IMG/VR virus record: IMGVR_UViG_3300036770_004625
Span: 1 to 59,703 of that record
Strand: one strand, 5' to 3'
Origin: a virus
Length of the DNA: 59,703 nucleotides
Below, one piece after another: positions 23,232 to 32,147 of this stretch. The stretch's first letter is position 1. Each line of letters begins with the position of its first letter. Position numbers and translations under genes: made by a program. Below the pieces are notes generated by a model. The model made no database searches, was not told the DNA's origin, and saw nothing but the letters and a program-made list of their open reading frames with translations.

Positions 23232-23476
23232 TATACGCTGAAAATTCAAAAAAAGTTTTTTATGATCACCAAAAATCAAAATTTGACGTAATTGGTGTAA
23301 TAGACGTAATTTCTATTTGTTTTCAATGAGTTATAAATTACAGCGAATTACAGTAGTGTTTTGACGTAATTACTGATGTTACAATTAACCATGCTTTTTA
23401 ACCTTTCGTACTACAAACGTCCAGGAATTCATAAAAAAAGAAAAGTTTTTTTTTTTTTTTGAATTTTCAGCGTATA
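23232..23476 (+). repeat. Long-range 23-bp perfect inverted repeat
   Basis: The left arm 23232-23254 begins TATACGCTGAAAATTC and ends in seven A residues. The right arm 23454-23476 is its exact reverse complement. The arms are separated by 199 bp of AT-rich DNA, so a giant hairpin or a protein-bridged loop is possible. Confidence 0.9.
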
Positions 23477-23586
23477 TGGTGAGGGCGGAGGGGCGAAAAG
23501 TTACACCTGTGAAGGAGAGCCGTAATGTTATTTGTCGTAATTTTGGGAGTGTTCTTTGTGATGCTTTTTCTGGAGGATCGATTGAA

Positions 23587-24267
23587 ATGAGCTCGACAGT
23601 CCGAAAGAAGCAGGCGCAAGCTTTGTCCAGGGTGGCGCAGTATGACCCTGCGATACATAAACGGGGGCCGAAGCAAAGGAAGGTCCTGACCGAGCGGGAA
23701 GTTAAATTTGTAGAAATATGGTTGTCTTCTGCTGGACAACTCAGCATGCGGGAGGCGGCGATCGAGGCAGGCTATCCGGCGGCATCTGCCCATAGCAGGG
23801 CCACAGAACTGACCAATCCGGTACGCAAGCCCCACGTAGTGGCCTACATCCAAAAGAGGCAGAGGGAGCTCGGGGAGAAGTACGGGACGAACTTTGAGCG
23901 CCACATGAAGGATCTGCTGATGATTCGGGATAAGGCGATCGAGGCCGGGGCTTGGGCGGCGGCAGTCCAGGCGGAGTACCGGAGGGGGCAAGCCTTGGGC
24001 AATATCTATGTGGATCGCAAAGAAATCCGTCATGGGACGATTGACTCGATGAGCAAAGAGGAGGTGCAGAAGAAGCTGGAGGAGTTGCGGCGCCTATACT
24101 CCCCTCGGAAAGAGGTCATCGACGTGGAGGACACGTCTTTGGATGATGCGATAGAGATGGAAAGAGAAGCTGATCACACTACAGGGGAGGAATTTGATGA
24201 AGCCGGAGACAGCGTTTTATCGGAGGATGAAGGCGGGGATGAAGAAGACGAGGATTACCCGCGTTGA
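23587..24267 (+). CDS. terS: Terminase small subunit, 226 aa
   Basis: It recognises phage DNA and recruits the large subunit for packaging. I chose ATG 23587, which has GGAGG upstream, over the upstream in-frame ATG 23476, because the latter would put poorly conserved residues and part of the inverted repeat in the gene. Residues about 35-110 hold the DNA-binding helical part (LTEREVKFVEIW, then MREAAIEAGYPAAS, a helix-turn-helix pattern). The middle is helical, and the last 45 residues are very acidic. The large subunit is far downstream (30687). Confidence 0.8.
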   Translation: MSSTVRKKQAQALSRVAQYDPAIHKRGPKQRKVLTEREVKFVEIWLSSAGQLSMREAAIEAGYPAASAHSRATELTNPVRKPHVVAYIQKRQRELGEKYGTNFERHMKDLLMIRDKAIEAGAWAAAVQAEYRRGQALGNIYVDRKEIRHGTIDSMSKEEVQKKLEELRRLYSPRKEVIDVEDTSLDDAIEMEREADHTTGEEFDEAGDSVLSEDEGGDEEDEDYPR

Positions 24268-24586
24268 GTCCTGGGTGAACCTGGGAATTCCGGACTGCAT
24301 CCTGTCCCTGGAGAAGCGCTTTTTGTTGGTCGAACTGAAGGTGGCGGCGCCGAGCGGTCGAATAAAGTTGAGCGCCCATCAGGTTGCTTTTCATGAGGCG
24401 CATCGGGACTATCCCTGCTTTATCTTGGCAAGCTTTGGTGAGGCAAGGAAAAGGGAGATCTGGCTTTATCCGTCGCACAGGGCGAAGGATTTAGCGGTGG
24501 GCGTATGCCAGCCGGACATAAGGATTCCGGAGAACGCCGAGGGGTGGCAGAAGCTGGAGGAAGCATTCGGGTTTTCCCTAGATTGA
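24197..24586 (+). CDS. VRR-NUC/Holliday-junction-resolvase-like nuclease, 129 aa
   Basis: A small PD-(D/E)XK endonuclease. The motifs are in ESWVNLGIPDCIL (Asp), FLLVELKVA (Glu-x-Lys) and LSAHQVAFHEAH (Gln), the pattern of VRR-NUC and junction-resolvase domains. It may resolve branched replication DNA before packaging. ATG 24197 has GGGGAGG six bases upstream and is preferred over TTG 24194. It overlaps the end of the terminase small subunit gene by about 70 bp in another frame. Confidence 0.8.
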   Translation: MKPETAFYRRMKAGMKKTRITRVESWVNLGIPDCILSLEKRFLLVELKVAAPSGRIKLSAHQVAFHEAHRDYPCFILASFGEARKREIWLYPSHRAKDLAVGVCQPDIRIPENAEGWQKLEEAFGFSLD

Positions 24587-24611
24587 CTACCGGTAGTAAT
24601 GATGCTATAGT
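24583..24611 (+). promoter_or_regulatory. Sigma-70 promoter with palindromic operator at -35
   Basis: TTGACT (24583-24588), a 17-bp spacer and TATAGT (24606-24611) point to the gene at 24645. The perfect palindrome ACTACCGGTAGT lies at 24586-24597, overlapping the -35, and matches the operator-like sites at 21303 and 25178. Its position at -35 rather than -10 suggests the regulator blocks polymerase binding in more than one way. Confidence 0.75.
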
Positions 24612-24644
24612 GTGGGTGTAGTCAACTCATACAGGAGAATTACC

Positions 24645-24851
24645 ATGGCAAGAAAATGGCTTGTTGGCACCAACACCGCAAAGGTCGATGGTCCCTCATT
24701 CAAAACGAAGCGCGAGGCGATCGAGTATGGTCGCCGATATATCAACGGCATTTTTATGGTTTGGAAGGCCGATCTGCACGAAGGGCAGAAGGCAGAGAAC
24801 GGCGCTCGTCTTCGGGCATGGCTCCGGGATACGGCGGAGGCCTCAGCATGA
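24645..24851 (+). CDS. Small basic hypothetical protein, 68 aa
   Basis: ATG 24645 follows the ATACAGGAGAA leader. The protein is basic in its first half (ARKWLVGTNTAKVDG, KTKREAIEYGRRYINGIF) with mixed strand and helix content. The family is unknown. It ends in ATGA overlap with the next gene and is driven by the operator promoter at 24583. Confidence 0.65.
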   Translation: MARKWLVGTNTAKVDGPSFKTKREAIEYGRRYINGIFMVWKADLHEGQKAENGARLRAWLRDTAEASA

Positions 24852-25165: not shown

Positions 25166-25194
25166 TTGCAAGAATAAACTACCCGTAGTAATCT
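25166..25194 (+). promoter_or_regulatory. Sigma-70 promoter with palindromic operator at -10
   Basis: TTGCAA (25166-25171), 17 bp and TAATCT (25189-25194) precede the gene at 25225. ACTACCCGTAGT lies at 25178-25189, the same sequence as at 21303. The promoter is weaker than the other two by consensus. Confidence 0.65.
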
Positions 25195-25224
25195 AGTGGC
25201 TCAACTCATACAGGAGAAATTAGC

Positions 25225-25913: not shown

Positions 25914-25967
25914 ATGCTCTTATTGGTGTTTATCCTAATGTGGGTTTTGCATGATTGGCTTGACTAG
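25914..25967 (+). CDS. 17-residue hydrophobic micro-protein
   Basis: Two bases after the previous stop, ATG 25914 opens MLLLVFILMWVLHDWLD and ends at TAG 25965-25967. It has no good Shine-Dalgarno site, so it would depend on ribosomes finishing the upstream gene. Composition is that of a membrane peptide, like the one at 19964. Confidence 0.4.
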   Translation: MLLLVFILMWVLHDWLD

Positions 25968-25988
25968 CGTCCCGGTATCCTATAAATT
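25960..25988 (+). promoter_or_regulatory. Probable promoter of the DUF932 gene
   Basis: TTGACT is at 25960-25965; TATAAA (25981-25986) or TAAATT (25983-25988) can be the -10 with 15- or 17-bp spacing. CCGGTATCCTATAA around it is identical to the promoter at 19702, so the match is probably functional even though the spacing differs. Confidence 0.6.
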
Positions 25989-26042
25989 ATCGACATGGCT
26001 CGAATGGTTCGGGCCTGCAACCTCAATACAGGAGATTTAAAA

Positions 26043-26876: not shown

Positions 26877-26916
26877 TCTCAGGCTATCGGATAGTCCTAT
26901 GGGATAGTTATAAACT

Positions 26917-26946
26917 AAGCCCCATGGTCCGAGGGCCGTGGGGCTT
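26917..26946 (+). terminator. Hairpin terminator after the DUF932 gene
   Basis: An 11-bp stem (26917-26927 with 26936-26946, AAGCCCCATGG on the left) with one G-U pair and an 8-base loop. There is no T-run after it, so it is a weaker terminator or a processing site. Confidence 0.55.
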
Positions 26947-26956
26947 GAAACTTGAG

Positions 26957-27008
26957 GCAAGGGCCGTGGGGCCCTTGCATTGATTGCCGATAATTGATAA
27001 ATTATCGG
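26957..27008 (+). promoter_or_regulatory. Two inverted repeats before the 92-aa gene
   Basis: A 9-bp perfect stem GCAAGGGCC (26957-26965 with 26970-26978) is followed by a 9-bp AT-rich palindrome CCGATAATT (26987-26995 with 27000-27008). A weak promoter (TTGCAT 26975, TAAATT 26998, spacer 17) lies across them. The second element would act as an operator or leader hairpin. Confidence 0.5.
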
Positions 27009-27037
27009 TTCGTTCAATCAATACAGGAGAATGCACC

Positions 27038-27316
27038 ATGCAACATGATCAAAGACACGGCGGCCCGTATGATCGGGGCCGCGCGGACTCTTACTATCGG
27101 CGGCCATTCGCGCCGCATTATTTCGTCGGCGATACCTATTCGAGCCCAAGAGTCGCCGCCGCCAATATGTCGGCGGCGGAGGTTGCGGCCTATGCTCGAG
27201 GGTTCGCGGACAATGAGCAGTTCGGGGATTTTAAGGACTGGGATTCACCCTATGCCCATGTCTCTCGAGACATGGGGGAGGATGGGGAGGGCTCTATCGA
27301 GACGGCGTCTCGATAG
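27038..27316 (+). CDS. Small hypothetical protein, 92 aa
   Basis: ATG 27038 follows AATACAGGAGAATGCACC. The N-terminus is His/Arg/Tyr-rich (HDQRHGGPYDRGRADSYYRR), the middle has MSAAEVAAYARGFADNEQFGD, a short helical pattern of many small phage proteins, and the C-terminus is acidic. The function is unknown. Its last codons form the left arm of the hairpin at 27294. Confidence 0.6.
   Translation: MQHDQRHGGPYDRGRADSYYRRPFAPHYFVGDTYSSPRVAAANMSAAEVAAYARGFADNEQFGDFKDWDSPYAHVSRDMGEDGEGSIETASR
27294..27316 (+). terminator. Hairpin overlapping the stop of the 92-aa gene
   Basis: CTATCGAGAC (27294-27303), loop GGC, and its complement (27307-27316) form a perfect 10-bp stem followed by TTAAAAAG. The CTATCG...CGATAG ends match the hairpins at 27842 and 28322. 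Confidence 0.6.
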
Positions 27317-27341
27317 TTAAAAAGTAATGGACGGGCCTAGG

Positions 27342-27373
27342 CCCTGCCGGTAATGTGAACATTACCGGCAGGG
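27342..27373 (+). promoter_or_regulatory. 15-bp perfect palindrome in the leader of the 144-aa gene
   Basis: CCCTGCCGGTAATGT (27342-27356), GA, and the exact reverse complement (27359-27373). It sits just before CTTAATACAGGAGAA. It could be an operator in DNA or a strong leader hairpin in RNA; the stem holds GCCGGTAA, also in the hairpins at 27891 and 28371. Confidence 0.65.
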
Positions 27374-27403
27374 TGCCGGTAACCCTTAATACAGGAGAAA
27401 ATC

Positions 27404-27838
27404 ATGGGCAATAGAGCCGTTATTACGTGGGGCACCGAAGGGTCTGAATCGGTGGGTGTTTATTTGCACTGGAACGGTGGCCGCGCGTCAGTGCGGGCTT
27501 TCCTGGACACGTGTAAGGCCCGAGGCTACCGGTCTCCGGTAGCCGATCCGTCGTATGCCATGGCTGGACTGGTGGCCGTGGTCCAAGAGTTTTTTGGCGC
27601 CACTGGGTTATCCGTTGGCGTCGACGTGATAAACCGCATGGACTGCGACAACATGGACAACGGGGTTTATCAGGTGGGCGAGGGTTGGCAAATTGTTGAC
27701 CGGTGGGGCGAGGGCTCGCAGTCGGTCGAGCTGACCATGGCCGCCATGCATGGCCGCGAGCTCGAGCAGTATGAGAGCATCATGGCCCAACTGGCGCGAG
27801 CCAGGGAACCGGCAGCCATCGTGTTTGAGACGGTCTAA
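27404..27838 (+). CDS. Conserved-looking phage protein, 144 aa
   Basis: The start GNRAVITWGTEGSESVGVYLHWNGG is a pattern I recognise from uncharacterised proteins in many phages of diverse hosts (described here by its parts NRAVI and YLHWNGG). The protein is alpha/beta and ends in a helical acidic stretch. The function is unknown. It is a single-gene unit flanked by hairpins on both sides. Confidence 0.65.
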   Translation: MGNRAVITWGTEGSESVGVYLHWNGGRASVRAFLDTCKARGYRSPVADPSYAMAGLVAVVQEFFGATGLSVGVDVINRMDCDNMDNGVYQVGEGWQIVDRWGEGSQSVELTMAAMHGRELEQYESIMAQLARAREPAAIVFETV

Positions 27839-27841
27839 GGG

Positions 27842-27867
27842 ACTATCGGGGCGCGAGCCCCGATAGT
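27842..27867 (+). terminator. Hairpin with GNRA tetraloop after the 144-aa gene
   Basis: ACTATCGGGGC (27842-27852) pairs with 27857-27867 around a GCGA loop, giving an 11-bp stem followed by TATAAAG. The same stem ends, followed by the same TATAAAGTAATGGAC, recur at 28322. Confidence 0.7.
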
Positions 27868-27890
27868 TATAAAGTAATGGACCGGGGCAG

Positions 27891-27927
27891 ACCGCGCCGG
27901 TAATGTGTCACTTAACCCCGGCGCGGT
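27891..27927 (+). promoter_or_regulatory. GC-rich leader hairpin before the 121-aa gene
   Basis: ACCGCGCCGG (27891-27900) pairs with 27918-27927 around a 17-base AT-rich loop. It lies 10-20 bases before the ATACAGGAGAA leader. Nearly the same element is at 28371. Confidence 0.65.
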
Positions 27928-27955
27928 GCTGGGGCCAATACAGGAGAATGACCAA

Positions 27956-28321
27956 ATGAAAGCTTATTTAATCGACCCTCAGGCCCAGCAAATCACCCAG
28001 GTGGAATACTCTGGCAATTACGAAGAGATTTATACGCATATCAACGCGCCGCTGTTCACCACGGCCACATTCAATAACGCGGGCGACACCTGCTTCGTCG
28101 ATGACGAGGGGCTCTTCAATGGTGACAATTGCTTCTTCGTCATCGCCGGTTATCCCCAGCCCCTGGCTGGGCGGGGCTTGGTCCTTGGCTGTAATGACGA
28201 AGGCGAGAGCACGGAGCCCAGCATTACATTGAACCAGCTGCGGGCCCTGGTGGACTGGGTCCCACGGTTTATGGTGGCGGCCGTGGCCGAGGCGCTCGAG
28301 GAGGAATACCGGCGGGGCTAG
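27956..28321 (+). CDS. Hypothetical protein, 121 aa
   Basis: ATG 27956 follows AATACAGGAGAATGACCAA. The start KAYLIDPQAQQITQVEYSG and the short acidic middle (NAGDTCFVDDEGLF, GDNCFFVIAGYPQPL) recall the DUF3846-type small proteins found in phages, which often pair a beta strand start with a late FF-V strand. The C-terminus is a helix. The function is unknown and the family call is tentative. Confidence 0.6.
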   Translation: MKAYLIDPQAQQITQVEYSGNYEEIYTHINAPLFTTATFNNAGDTCFVDDEGLFNGDNCFFVIAGYPQPLAGRGLVLGCNDEGESTEPSITLNQLRALVDWVPRFMVAAVAEALEEEYRRG

Positions 28322-28347
28322 ACTATCGGGGCCTTGGCCCCGATAGT
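28322..28347 (+). terminator. Hairpin after the 121-aa gene
   Basis: ACTATCGGGGCC (28322-28333), TT, and its complement (28336-28347) give a 12-bp stem followed by TATAAAGTAATGGAC. It is a near copy of the element at 27842. Confidence 0.7.
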
Positions 28348-28370
28348 TATAAAGTAATGGACGGCAGTTG

Positions 28371-28407
28371 ACCGCGCCGGTAAAGTCTTACTTATCCCCG
28401 GCGCGGT
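28371..28407 (+). promoter_or_regulatory. GC-rich leader hairpin before the 149-aa gene
   Basis: ACCGCGCCGG (28371-28380) pairs with 28398-28407 around a 17-base loop. It is a near copy of the hairpin at 27891, with identical stems and a similar loop. Confidence 0.65.
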
Positions 28408-28433
28408 GCTGGGGGCATACAGGAGAAAAGACC

Positions 28434-28883
28434 ATGTTGCAAGATCTAGTGAATGAAGACACCCGTGGCCCTGGCTTTCCCGCCAGCTACAAGTACGACG
28501 GCCTGTTGAGAGAACTAGCGGCACTGCTCGTGCCCCATATCCTCGAGCATGTTGATGTGCAGAGGCTGTTCGCCGGTGCGTCCCAGCTGGTCACTCGTGA
28601 GACGGTCGAAGAGATCGTCCAGGCGAAGATGGACGAACTGGGCCCGATCGACAAGGACATGATCCGCGAGGTCTGCGAAGAGGTCGTCGATGCGTCAGAC
28701 ATCGACGATAAGATCAACGACTGGTACGTGAACAACTTCGACATCTCCGACTATGAATCGGAGATCAAGGACATGGTCGATGTGGACGATGCGGTCGAGA
28801 CCCACCTCAACACTTACCTGCACGACGAAGTGGTGTCGTGCATCCAGGGCCTCAAGTTTAATGTCGAGGTTTCGTCCAGGTAG
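28434..28883 (+). CDS. Very acidic hypothetical protein, 149 aa
   Basis: ATG 28434 follows CATACAGGAGAAAAGACC. Strongly acidic, with a helical first half and repeated DIDD, DISDY and DVDD segments in the second half (about residues 90-125). The acidic, Tyr-poor pattern could mimic DNA or bind metal ions, but no family is recognised. It is a single-gene unit under the shared leader. Confidence 0.6.
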   Translation: MLQDLVNEDTRGPGFPASYKYDGLLRELAALLVPHILEHVDVQRLFAGASQLVTRETVEEIVQAKMDELGPIDKDMIREVCEEVVDASDIDDKINDWYVNNFDISDYESEIKDMVDVDDAVETHLNTYLHDEVVSCIQGLKFNVEVSSR

Positions 28884-28920
28884 TTGACAGCCACACCGAT
28901 ATCTGCCAAGATATCGGTGT
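28884..28920 (+). promoter_or_regulatory. Putative promoter with 12-bp perfect palindrome
   Basis: TTGACA lies at 28884-28889, immediately after a stop codon. A perfect inverted repeat ACACCGATATCT (28893-28904) with GCCA loop and complement (28909-28920) starts 3 bp later. A -10 such as AAGATA (28908, spacer 18) would lie inside the right arm. This suggests an operator; a terminator is less likely because no T-run follows. Confidence 0.55.
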
Positions 28921-28957
28921 AGTACATCTCAACCGCAGTCATACAGGAGAAATCAAC

Positions 28958-29230
28958 ATGCAGATCTACTCACTCAACATCGAGCGTCAATCCAGCTACT
29001 CTGACTTCAAACCCAACCAGCTGGTGTGCAAGGTTCAGCTGCGCGACATCGAGGGCAACTCTCAGATCGTAACCCTGGACGATGCGACCCTGGTCGCGAT
29101 CCTCGAGGTGATCCGCGAGGCCACCGTCGCCAAGTGCAAGGCCAACGCCGCCGTCGCCAAAGCCGCGATCGAATCCGCGATCGCGGCCCCAGCCCTGGAG
29201 GACGCCACCACGCTCAAGCTGGAGGACTGA
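28958..29230 (+). CDS. Hypothetical protein, 90 aa
   Basis: ATG 28958 follows the CATACAGGAGAAATCAAC leader. The first half is beta-rich (QLVCKVQLRDIEGN, IVTLDDATLVAILEVI) and the second half is an Ala-rich helix (AAVAKAAIESAIAAPALED). The function is unknown. It is the last gene before the non-coding stretch that separates accessory genes from the structural block. Confidence 0.6.
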   Translation: MQIYSLNIERQSSYSDFKPNQLVCKVQLRDIEGNSQIVTLDDATLVAILEVIREATVAKCKANAAVAKAAIESAIAAPALEDATTLKLED

Positions 29231-29239
29231 CTCTCCTGT

Positions 29240-29322
29240 CTGGCGCGTACCACGCGCCAGTCTTCCCGTCCAATTGCATTTTGCAATTGGACGGGGGGAA
29301 GTGATAGGCAATGCCTATCACT
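29240..29322 (+). terminator. Three consecutive hairpins
   Basis: Hairpin one: CTGGCGCGT (29240-29248) with 29252-29260. Hairpin two: a 13-bp perfect stem CCCGTCCAATTGC (29265-29277) with 29283-29295 and a five-base loop. Hairpin three: AGTGATAGGC (29300-29309) with 29313-29322. None has a T-run, so they may block read-through together, or bind a protein. Confidence 0.6.
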
Positions 29323-29578: not shown

Positions 29579-30247
29579 ATGGACTACGAACCATTTAAGA
29601 ATGCGCCAAACGTTTCTTCTATGTTCATGACGGACCGTGGTTCGACGTACGCGCTTTTTGATGACCAGACCTCGCAACGTAATCGGAGTGGTGCGAATCA
29701 TGAGGACAAGAGCACGGGGTTGCAGCAGCGTTCTGGAAAGACAATATTTTTGGACCGGGATTCAATGAACAAGGTTGGTATGACGTTTCAGCGAGAAGAT
29801 GTAGCGACAAGATTCCTGCCCATTTTAGATAGTGAAAATAAGCCTACTGGCAGGGCGAAGTTAGAGCTAACGCAGGACCATACTTATCGGCCCTCGAAAC
29901 TTGTGCAGGGAAAGTTTGTGATGGGAGAGCCGCAGACGTTAAGGGCGGGGACGGTATTGACAGAAGTGCCGTACTCAACGAGGCCTGCGGTGGGGATGCA
30001 TCCGGTGGAGATTATGCGGTCGGAAAGTCCGATTGGGGATAGGGGTCGGGGAATTCATTTTGGCTCGAAGATTACGGAAATAGTAGATCGTGCTCGGGAG
30101 AAAGCGGCTGCAAACAGGGCAGTTGGAATTGGCGGTGGTGGGATGAATCCGATGGATATTGAGAGGGTTCCTGGAAAGCGTCCGTTGAAGATGGCCAAGG
30201 GTGGTATGGTGGACAAGGCGATTGCTGGTAATTGGAAGATTATTTAG
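29579..30247 (+). CDS. Virion or packaging-associated protein with MAKGG tail, 222 aa
   Basis: ATG 29579 follows AGGCTGCT, a weak site. The middle region looks beta-rich and charged. The last 35 residues contain GGGMNP, DIE, VPGKRPLKMAKGG and then MVDKAIAG. Nearly the same tail ends the next protein. First gene after the late promoter and before the terminase; a packaging or capsid-related role is inferred from position only. Confidence 0.6.
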   Translation: MDYEPFKNAPNVSSMFMTDRGSTYALFDDQTSQRNRSGANHEDKSTGLQQRSGKTIFLDRDSMNKVGMTFQREDVATRFLPILDSENKPTGRAKLELTQDHTYRPSKLVQGKFVMGEPQTLRAGTVLTEVPYSTRPAVGMHPVEIMRSESPIGDRGRGIHFGSKITEIVDRAREKAAANRAVGIGGGGMNPMDIERVPGKRPLKMAKGGMVDKAIAGNWKII

Positions 30248-30256
30248 GGGTCATGC

Positions 30257-30676
30257 ATGCCTAAGAAAAAGAAACCTGAACCGTCGTACGCGGGCCGTGA
30301 GATGTATTCCGGCTCCGAACAAAATGAGCGGGACTTGCAGGAGTGGTGGGACTCGATGAACAAGGAAGAAAAGCGCATGGCGGAGGAGGCCAAGAAGCCA
30401 AAGACGCCGCCGTACAAACCGCTTGATCCAAAAGATCCGTTGGACAAGGCGATTATGGGTTTGGAGAGGCATGTACGAAAGTGGGAAAAATTCCAAGGAA
30501 TGTATGGCAATAAGTCTGCGCCTGCGGGTGGTGGGATGAATCCTGCTGATATAGAGAAGGTCCCTGGTAAGCGGCCCTTGAAGATGGCGAAGGGTGGCCT
30601 TGCTACTCGTGGGTATGGAATTGCAAGAAGGCCAGCGAAAAAGATGGTGAAGTTAGCGGTCACTAAGAAACGATGA
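30257..30676 (+). CDS. Basic virion-associated protein with MAKGG tail, 139 aa
   Basis: The N-terminus is highly charged (PKKKKPEPSYAG), the middle helical and Lys/Glu-rich, and residues about 88-112 repeat the tail of its neighbour (GGGMNP, DIE, VPGKRPLKMAKGG). After this motif come basic residues (RRPAKKMVKL). It is directly upstream of the terminase gene and coupled to it through a five-codon ORF. The function is unknown. Confidence 0.6.
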   Translation: MPKKKKPEPSYAGREMYSGSEQNERDLQEWWDSMNKEEKRMAEEAKKPKTPPYKPLDPKDPLDKAIMGLERHVRKWEKFQGMYGNKSAPAGGGMNPADIEKVPGKRPLKMAKGGLATRGYGIARRPAKKMVKLAVTKKR

Positions 30677-30690
30677 CTGCAGCCAAATGA
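30673..30690 (+). CDS. Five-codon relay ORF before the terminase gene
   Basis: ATG 30673 overlaps the previous stop, encodes MTAAK and ends in TGA 30688-30690, which overlaps the terminase ATG at 30687. There is no separate ribosome site for terminase, so ribosomes may reach it by this relay. Confidence 0.3.
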   Translation: MTAAK

Positions 30691-32147
30691 CCACGATCCA
30701 AGATCCGTCGGCCGAGATTGCTCGTCTGGAGTACAGGCTTGAGCAGTTGCAGGTTCGTGAGCGGGCGAGGGAGAACTTTTTGGACTTTGTGCGGTATGTG
30801 TGGCCGGAGTTCATATGTGGCCCGCATCACAGAATCATGGCGGAGAAATTTGAGGCCCTGGTCCGTGGAGATTTGACCAGGGTCATTATTAATATTGCGC
30901 CTCGACATGGTAAGTCAGAGCTTACTTCGTATTTGTTTTTAGCGTGGCTCATGGGCCGTGATCCGACGTCGAAGATTATTCAGGCCACGCACACGGGGGA
31001 GTTGGCGATGCGGTTTGGTCGCAAGGTCAGGAACCTGATGGATTCGGAGTTGTACAAGGAGGTGTTTCCGGAGGTGGCGTTGGCGGCGGACAGTAAAGCG
31101 GCGGGCCGGTGGGAAACGAACAAGGGTGGGGAGTATTTTGCCACTGGTGTGGGTGGTGCGATGACGGGTCGTGGTGCGAATTATTTGGTCATTGATGATC
31201 CGCACTCGGAGCAGGATGCGTTGTCGGAGACGGCGATGGAAGCGGCGCATGAGTGGTACACGTCGGGACCTCGGCAGCGGCTGCAGCCTGGGGGCAAGAT
31301 TTTGTTGGTCATGACGAGGTGGTCGAAGAAGGATTTGACCGAGATGGTGTTGAAGGATCAGGCCAGAGATTCGAGGTCGGACAAGTGGGATGTGATTGAG
31401 TTTCCGGCGATCATGCCCAGTGGCAAGCCGTGTTGGCCGGAGTTTTGGAAGTTAGATGATTTGTTGGCGGTCAAGGCTGCGTTGCCTCTTAATAAGTGGA
31501 GTGCGCAGTGGCAGCAGAACCCGACCTCGGAAGAAGGAGCCATATTCAAGCGGGAGTGGTGGAAGGTTTGGCCGCATGAAAACATTCCACGCCTGAAGTA
31601 CATCATTCAGAGCTATGACACGGCGTATTCCAAGAAGGAGACGGCCGACTTTTCTGCGATTACGACGTGGGGAGTATTTCAGCCCAGTGTGGATGATCCG
31701 GACAGTTTGATTTTGTTGGATGCCAAGAAGGGGCGGTGGGACTTTCCGGAGTTAAAGAGAAAGGCGCTGGAGTTTTACAAGTTCTGGAACCCGGACTGTG
31801 TGTTAATCGAAGCGAAGGCTTCGGGGCTGCCGCTCACGCAAGAATTGCGCAGAACGGGCATTCCGGTAGTAAACTACTCACCTGGAGGGCGCAACAAATC
31901 GACGGACAAGGTCAGTCGAGCGAACTCGGTGTCTCCGGTTTTTGAGGCGGGGATGGTATGGGCCCCTGACCAGCCGTGGGCGGAGGAAGTTGTTGAGGAG
32001 ATGGCGGAGTTTCCGTTTGGAGAAAATGATGACCTCACGGACAGTGCTGTGCAAGCGGTGATCCGATTCCGCCAGGGCAATTTTATTGGGCTGCCGGATG
32101 ACTTTGAGGACGAGCCTTCTGAAGAACAACAGTACGTCTATTACTAA
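30687..32147 (+). CDS. terL: Terminase large subunit, 486 aa
   Basis: The DNA-packaging motor and headful or site nuclease. The ATPase motifs are APRHGKSE (Walker A, Lys76), YLVIDDPHSE (Walker B, Asp170/Asp171) and ILLVMTRWSKKDLTE (coupling, about 205-219). The nuclease motifs are IQSYDTAYSKKETADFSA (Asp311), CVLIEAKASG (Glu375) and FGENDDLTDSAVQA (Asp449/452). The length is normal. All catalytic residues are present, so it should be active. Small subunit is 7 kb upstream, separated by the accessory cassettes. Confidence 0.95.
   Translation: MTTIQDPSAEIARLEYRLEQLQVRERARENFLDFVRYVWPEFICGPHHRIMAEKFEALVRGDLTRVIINIAPRHGKSELTSYLFLAWLMGRDPTSKIIQATHTGELAMRFGRKVRNLMDSELYKEVFPEVALAADSKAAGRWETNKGGEYFATGVGGAMTGRGANYLVIDDPHSEQDALSETAMEAAHEWYTSGPRQRLQPGGKILLVMTRWSKKDLTEMVLKDQARDSRSDKWDVIEFPAIMPSGKPCWPEFWKLDDLLAVKAALPLNKWSAQWQQNPTSEEGAIFKREWWKVWPHENIPRLKYIIQSYDTAYSKKETADFSAITTWGVFQPSVDDPDSLILLDAKKGRWDFPELKRKALEFYKFWNPDCVLIEAKASGLPLTQELRRTGIPVVNYSPGGRNKSTDKVSRANSVSPVFEAGMVWAPDQPWAEEVVEEMAEFPFGENDDLTDSAVQAVIRFRQGNFIGLPDDFEDEPSEEQQYVYY

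Follow-up and report, generated by a model that had tools for sequence, protein, structure and literature searches.

A tract of small genes in a 59.7-kb virus record, which was analyzed over its whole length and is called the window below, carries paired inverted repeats in its leaders. The question is whether these repeats act as RNA or as DNA, and what they do for the genes behind them. A sequence-only reading of positions 26877–28957 had described one order recurring between single genes, namely a hairpin ending in CGATAG and adjoining sequence, a second inverted repeat with GCCGG in its stem, and a ribosome site before the start codon, and it had proposed a modular control unit whose second repeat could be an RNA switch or an operator. 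The five leaders of this interval are designated units A to E after the genes that follow them, and their upstream and downstream repeats are designated hairpin 1 and hairpin 2; all features listed lie on the plus strand.

Gene block and start motif

The TerL protein of the window is nearest to that of Phage DSL-LC04 (65%) and next to those of phage 023Pt_psg01 and the Pelagibacter phages HTVC027P and HTVC023P (54–60%). Judged from its sequence, the window phage seems to belong among aquatic podoviruses and their uncultured relatives; a megablast search with the window gave no match to named phages. Replication, portal, and capsid genes were recognized via PHROGs, and the block of units lies between the small (23476–24267) and the large (30687–32147) terminase genes. 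The 6.4 kb separating these two genes hold 14 of the window's 17 perfect inverted repeats with arms of at least 9 bp. Three block genes were assigned domains, DUF7227 (25225), DUF932 (26043), and DUF3846 (27956, gene C), and the remaining ones were without any match in the domain and PHROG searches. Promoters of a phage-encoded RNA polymerase were rejected, since no RNA polymerase was found in the PHROG matches of the larger proteins scanned. Beyond the block, three strong hairpins in series follow its last gene (29240–29322), a place occupied in the related contig L004 by a classic T-run terminator, and a 71-nt repeat (85%) occurs where each of two consecutive small genes ends, ahead of the large terminase gene (30134–30204 and 30527–30597).

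The sequence ATACAGGAGA precedes the start codon of eight block genes, including three (24645, 25225, and 26043) upstream of the interval originally described. The sequence TACAGGAGA has 8 copies in the window vs. 0.21 expected, all before gene starts in the block at 24.6–29.2 kb and none elsewhere. Motif searches placed the start motif at 27021–27030 for gene A (ATG at 27039), 27389–27398 for gene B (ATG at 27404), 27938–27947 for gene C (ATG at 27956), 28417–28426 for gene D (ATG at 28434), and 28941–28950 for gene E (ATG at 28958). The motif ATACAGGAGA contains the Shine-Dalgarno sequence and is specific to its phage lineage; relatives carry their own lineage-specific motifs AGAGAGGATAG or AGAAAGGATAG, and more distant ones AACACGGAG.

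Each of the three upstream genes has a candidate promoter ahead of the motif, namely a sigma-70-like TTGACT-17-TATAGT before the gene at 24645 (24583–24638, motif included), TTGCAA-17-TAATCT before the DUF7227 gene (25166–25217, motif included), and TTGACT-17-TAAATT before the DUF932 gene (25960–26035, leader hairpin and motif included). A strong hairpin is absent from two of the three. The leader of the DUF932 gene contains an 8-bp hairpin, GGCTCGAA-TGG-TTCGGGCC, whose stem changes among relatives are all compatible with G-U pairing.

Units A to E in the window and in close relatives

The described order was recovered in units B, C, and D, each of which carries CGATAGTTAWAAAGTAATGGAC, a GCCGG-containing second inverted repeat, and, ahead of its start codon, ATACAGGAGA. 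The element CGATAGTTATAAAGTAATGGAC occurs exactly at 27861 and 28341 and with one mismatch at 27311, where none would be expected by chance. Leaders C and D are 86% identical over 97 nt and precede genes for unrelated proteins (BLASTP E 2.4), which bears out the suggestion of near copies serving unrelated genes; in unit B, the cassette recurs with lower identity.

Hairpin 1 of unit C, ACTATCGGGGC-GCGA-GCCCCGATAGT (27842–27867), and that of unit D, ACTATCGGGGC-CTTG-GCCCCGATAGT (28322–28347), were found by the inverted-repeat search, and their promoter-like elements (27861–27882 and 28341–28362) by the match to CGATAGTTATAAAGTAATGGAC. Hairpin 2, placed by alignment and fold prediction, occupies 27891–27927 in unit C, with a 10-bp outer stem predicted to be 50% formed, and 28371–28407 in unit D, where it is predicted to be 95–98% formed. 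The C leader (27879–27955) has two near-equal predicted folds (−29.7 and −28.8 kcal/mol), and its near copy D is not bistable. In unit B, hairpin 1 with its 10-bp arms (27294–27316) lies within the 3′ end of gene A. The TAG of CGATAG doubles as the stop codon of that gene, and the promoter-like element CGATAGTTAAAAAGTAATGGAC (27311–27332) therefore begins within the upstream coding end. In this respect, unit B departs from the description of hairpins between genes. Hairpin 2 of unit B (27342–27373) has arms of 15 bp, and its leader folds with a z of −5.65. On sequence grounds, promoter assignment is weaker in units A to D, which have TATAAA or TAAAAA and no clear −35 box.

Units A and E match the cassette plan only loosely. 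Unit A contains GATAGTTATAAACTAAG, retains only GATAGTTATAAACTAA of the shared element, and has two extra hairpins ahead of hairpin 2 (26919–26944 and 26957–26978), which are present in L004 and not in L021 and L022. Its promoter-like element (26884–26914) combines a CTATC-N-GATAGT dyad with TATAAA; the CTAT...ATAG span is constant at 23–24 nt in the window, L004, L021, and L022, and its middle varies. The whole leader folds with a z of −6.7. Hairpin 2 of unit A, CCGATAATT-GATA-AATTATCGG (26987–27008), corresponds in L021 to CCGATATCC-GATA-GGATATCGG, which differs from the window by three double compensatory changes, and an unrelated hairpin occupies its position in L022 (these leaders were compared by eye, MAFFT having misaligned them). 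Unit E, before the gene at 28958, is without TTATAAAGTAATGG and has a single palindrome, ACACCGATATCTGCCAAGATATCGGTGT, within a TTGACA promoter, where it spans the spacer and the −10 region (28884–28920); the same layout is found in L004 units D and E.

The related contigs L004 to L006 share the block, but gene C is missing from them, genes A and B are separated by an additional gene, and gene D has a leader of a different kind. In L004 (4696–4911), the stop codon of an extra gene is likewise the TAG of CGATAG. In unit B of these contigs, hairpin 1 is missing, whereas the promoter-like element is retained together with a hairpin 2 that shows compensation: in the alignment of window B, C, and D with L004 B, 13 of 13 pairs are kept, two of them changed on both sides and one a G-U. 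A covariance model built from this alignment, the search recommended in the sequence-only reading, finds the unit before a different gene, gene A, in L022 (E 0.001) and L021 (E 0.02). The exact cassette element had no match in the other viral contigs searched.

Hairpin 2 across the wider relatives

Relatives of the DUF7227 and DUF932 genes led to well over 100 further loci. The DUF7227 relatives in contigs L113 and L114 come from genome bins labelled Rhodoferax and Verrucomicrobiota, and these are probably phage contigs binned with bacteria. Leader statistics were collected for a non-redundant set of 128 motif-bearing leaders, the last 48 nt being taken as the zone of hairpin 2. Strong inverted repeats stand directly before the motif in 57 of the 128 leaders (3.7 expected), and very strong ones in 33 (0.3 expected); 24 leaders have strong repeats farther upstream, within the promoter region (2.9 expected). 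Among motif-less genes of the same contigs, strong repeats were found in only 6 of 86 (p 5e-10). A strong hairpin is thus a feature of under half of the motif-bearing leaders, and two-thirds of the strong hairpins (38/57) have loops of 4 nt.

The motif-bearing genes mostly have their own sigma-70-like promoter. Where a strong hairpin accompanies a well-matching promoter, hairpin 2 begins 4–8 nt past the best −10 box in 38 of 53 leaders. Transcription normally starts at this distance, which would place the hairpin at the message's predicted 5′ end. Its end is mostly separated from the start motif by a spacer of 5–9 nt. Departures from this plan were also observed. In unit E, L004 D and E, and L054/L058, the repeat extends into the −10 box, and part of it would therefore not be transcribed. 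In five leaders (L076 8123, 8710, and 9195; L078 7212; L084 4186), a long inverted repeat has its left arm in the −35/−10 spacer and its right arm just before the start motif, and these repeats show compensatory changes, though the left arm would fall outside the gene's own message. In the cultured pelagiphage relative HTVC027P (L117 7640–7697), a leader of 58 nt holds a hairpin of 15 pairs that overlaps a TTGACA promoter, and both of its departures from perfect pairing are G-U compatible.

Hairpin 2 seems, from the stem comparisons, to be conserved as a structure and not as a sequence, its shape being the apparent target of selection. Between different genes of one contig, 42 of 61 stem pairs are at most 3/7 identical. 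In 14 orthologous leaders, 81% of the stem cells are paired vs. 61% in shuffled alignments, with 27 double changes vs. 8.6, a result reached in 0 of 500 shuffles; the compensatory changes in the second stem that had been called for are thus present here as well as in the B/C/D/L004 B alignment. Slid controls gave 27–40% paired, a comparison partly biased by the derivation of the consensus from the same alignment. The balance of G-U over A-C mismatches in hairpin 2 (16:8, p 0.07) leans to RNA and is not significant. Predicted folds leave the start motif mostly unpaired (0.62–0.92), and its accessibility is slightly higher in native than in shuffled leaders (0.63 vs. 0.58, p 5e-4). Near-identical leaders before unrelated adjacent genes, as in C and D, recur elsewhere (L058 8444 and 9041; L057 3472 and 4074), in agreement with the earlier proposal of a modular control unit that is duplicated beside unrelated genes.

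Possible functions and known systems

The best explanation of these leaders, and on balance a probable one from the sequence evidence, is that they are insulated single-gene units in which a 5′-terminal hairpin shields the end of the mRNA and leaves the ribosome site accessible. Each gene of the block would form its own transcription unit, with RNA polymerase presumably starting just past the −10-like box. The first 20–30 nt of the message would then form a hairpin at the 5′ end or close to it, followed by a short unpaired spacer, the start motif, and the start codon. The shape of the hairpin would probably shield the 5′ end from decay of the RppH/RNase E type and probably also prevent the start motif from pairing elsewhere; any gene behind the unit would thereby be expressed alike, and the unit would be duplicated or recombined between unrelated genes. 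The sequences show how the units are laid out, their enrichment, the covariation of their stems, their placement with respect to promoter-like boxes, and their duplication; the transcription start, action of the pairing in RNA, and the protective role are inferred. Given a structurally conserved hairpin 2 at the predicted 5′ end that leaves the start motif free, 5′-end protection with ribosome-site insulation would be the simplest function, by analogy with known 5′-terminal stem-loops. Such hairpins can stabilize mRNA by hindering 5′-end conversion, as established for ompA and papA (review PMC3997798). Like these stabilizers, the hairpins described here are predicted to lie at the 5′ end or within a few nucleotides of it, with an unpaired ribosome site downstream; unlike the single host-gene leaders of ompA and papA, they differ from gene to gene across many genes of one phage block.

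Alternatively, the inverted repeats could be promoter-associated DNA operators to which a regulator of the phage or the host binds. Such a role was proposed for ESAS of cluster K mycobacteriophages, whose start-associated sequences and extended SAS (SAS/ESAS) are the closest known system. SAS is a short AGGAG-containing start motif repeated 3–9 nt before the start codons of many genes of one region (Pope 2011, PMC3203893; Adephagia 2024, PMC11373665), and about half of the SAS genes have an upstream inverted repeat, ESAS, overlapping a sigma-70-like promoter with 17–18 bp spacing (PMC3203893; PMC11373665). The ESAS repeat is a conserved, imperfect 17-bp sequence for which pairing was unsupported and DNA binding was favored by its authors (PMC3203893). 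The layout is similar, but by sequence the window units are not a member of this system. The 13-bp SAS motif GGGATAGGAGCCC differs from ATACAGGAGA, with its 8 copies, and from the AGAGAGGATAG or AGAAAGGATAG of relatives. The repeats described here are promoter-linked but have stems that differ from gene to gene instead of a conserved 17-bp sequence, hairpin 2 lies downstream of the −10 box and covaries, and the phages are also different.

Several observations would suit an operator, namely that the repeats span promoters, that the E-type palindrome overlaps the −10 region, that hairpin 1 reuses ACTAT...ATAGT in several phages, and that many stems are perfect palindromes. Perfect palindromes are also favored by DNA-binding proteins. 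For hairpin 2, a single shared operator is argued against because the stems covary and are unlike between genes of the same phage, a variety of sequences that one operator cannot take, and an unrelated hairpin substitutes at the same place in L022 A. The idea of one operator in the CCGATA...TATCGG family (A, E, and L004) was dropped, since the stems are unrelated in L022 A and other phages. We therefore regard the operator reading as unlikely, though to be taken seriously; it is improbable for hairpin 2 and could still apply to hairpin 1.

Distinctly improbable is a single long message over the block in which the hairpins serve as processing or 3′-end sites (RNase III sites or exonuclease barriers) yielding single-gene pieces. 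Hairpin 1 does stand immediately after the stop codons at 27842 and 28322, it persists after L004 gene B although the promoter-like box is gone, and U-tract terminators are absent at these hairpins. In most leaders, however, a good promoter is present and the spacing from its −10 box to hairpin 2 is constant, hairpin 1 decays in orthologues while TTGAC stays, and L099 4028 already has a U-tract terminator ahead of hairpin 1. Two other roles considered for hairpin 1 were rejected: it is not an intrinsic terminator, a GC-rich stem then a T run, as no T run follows at 27842–27867 or 28322–28347, nor a conserved paired element, since its arms no longer pair in L004 B, in L022 A, or in many orthologues. 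Hairpin 1 is upstream of the predicted start, and its role may lie with a regulator or with the 3′ end of the preceding message.

It is very improbable that hairpin 2 is an RNA switch that senses a ligand or temperature and thereby governs ribosome access. It is immediately ahead of the ribosome site and the C leader is predicted to be bistable, but bistability is not common to D, the start motif is mostly unpaired and slightly more accessible in native leaders, the stems share no sequence, neither a conserved loop nor a sequence resembling an aptamer is present, and the window gave no Rfam match at the gathering threshold. That the whole cassette is a self-spreading, MITE-like repeat is scarcely credible, for although near-identical copies precede unrelated genes of one genome and relatives carry the unit before a different gene, copies occur only at gene starts, in one orientation and one block with no stray copies, the exact element was not found in other viral contigs, and recombination between leaders accounts for the copies.

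The units can also be compared with the morons of lambdoid phages, single genes with their own promoter that lie between phage operons and vary among relatives. Unlike morons, the units have no U-tract terminators and stand many in tandem with a common start motif. As a tentative and broader proposal, aquatic podoviruses may possess widespread interchangeable single-gene units that run an accessory block, each gene having a unique but structurally equivalent 5′-terminal hairpin together with a phage-specific start motif that is perhaps read preferentially during infection, a description not found in the literature searched. A genome study of HTVC023P-type phages does not mention promoters, hairpins, or Shine-Dalgarno motifs. 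The same layout is present in many uncultured relatives with a terminase close to those of the very abundant HTVC023P-type pelagiphages, and it offers an easy way to recognize single-gene units where genomes are otherwise unannotated. The units would represent a naturally occurring collection of insulated leaders that can be exchanged for one another, and phage signals of the SAS/ESAS type, so far unexplained, become testable in a second, unrelated group of phages.
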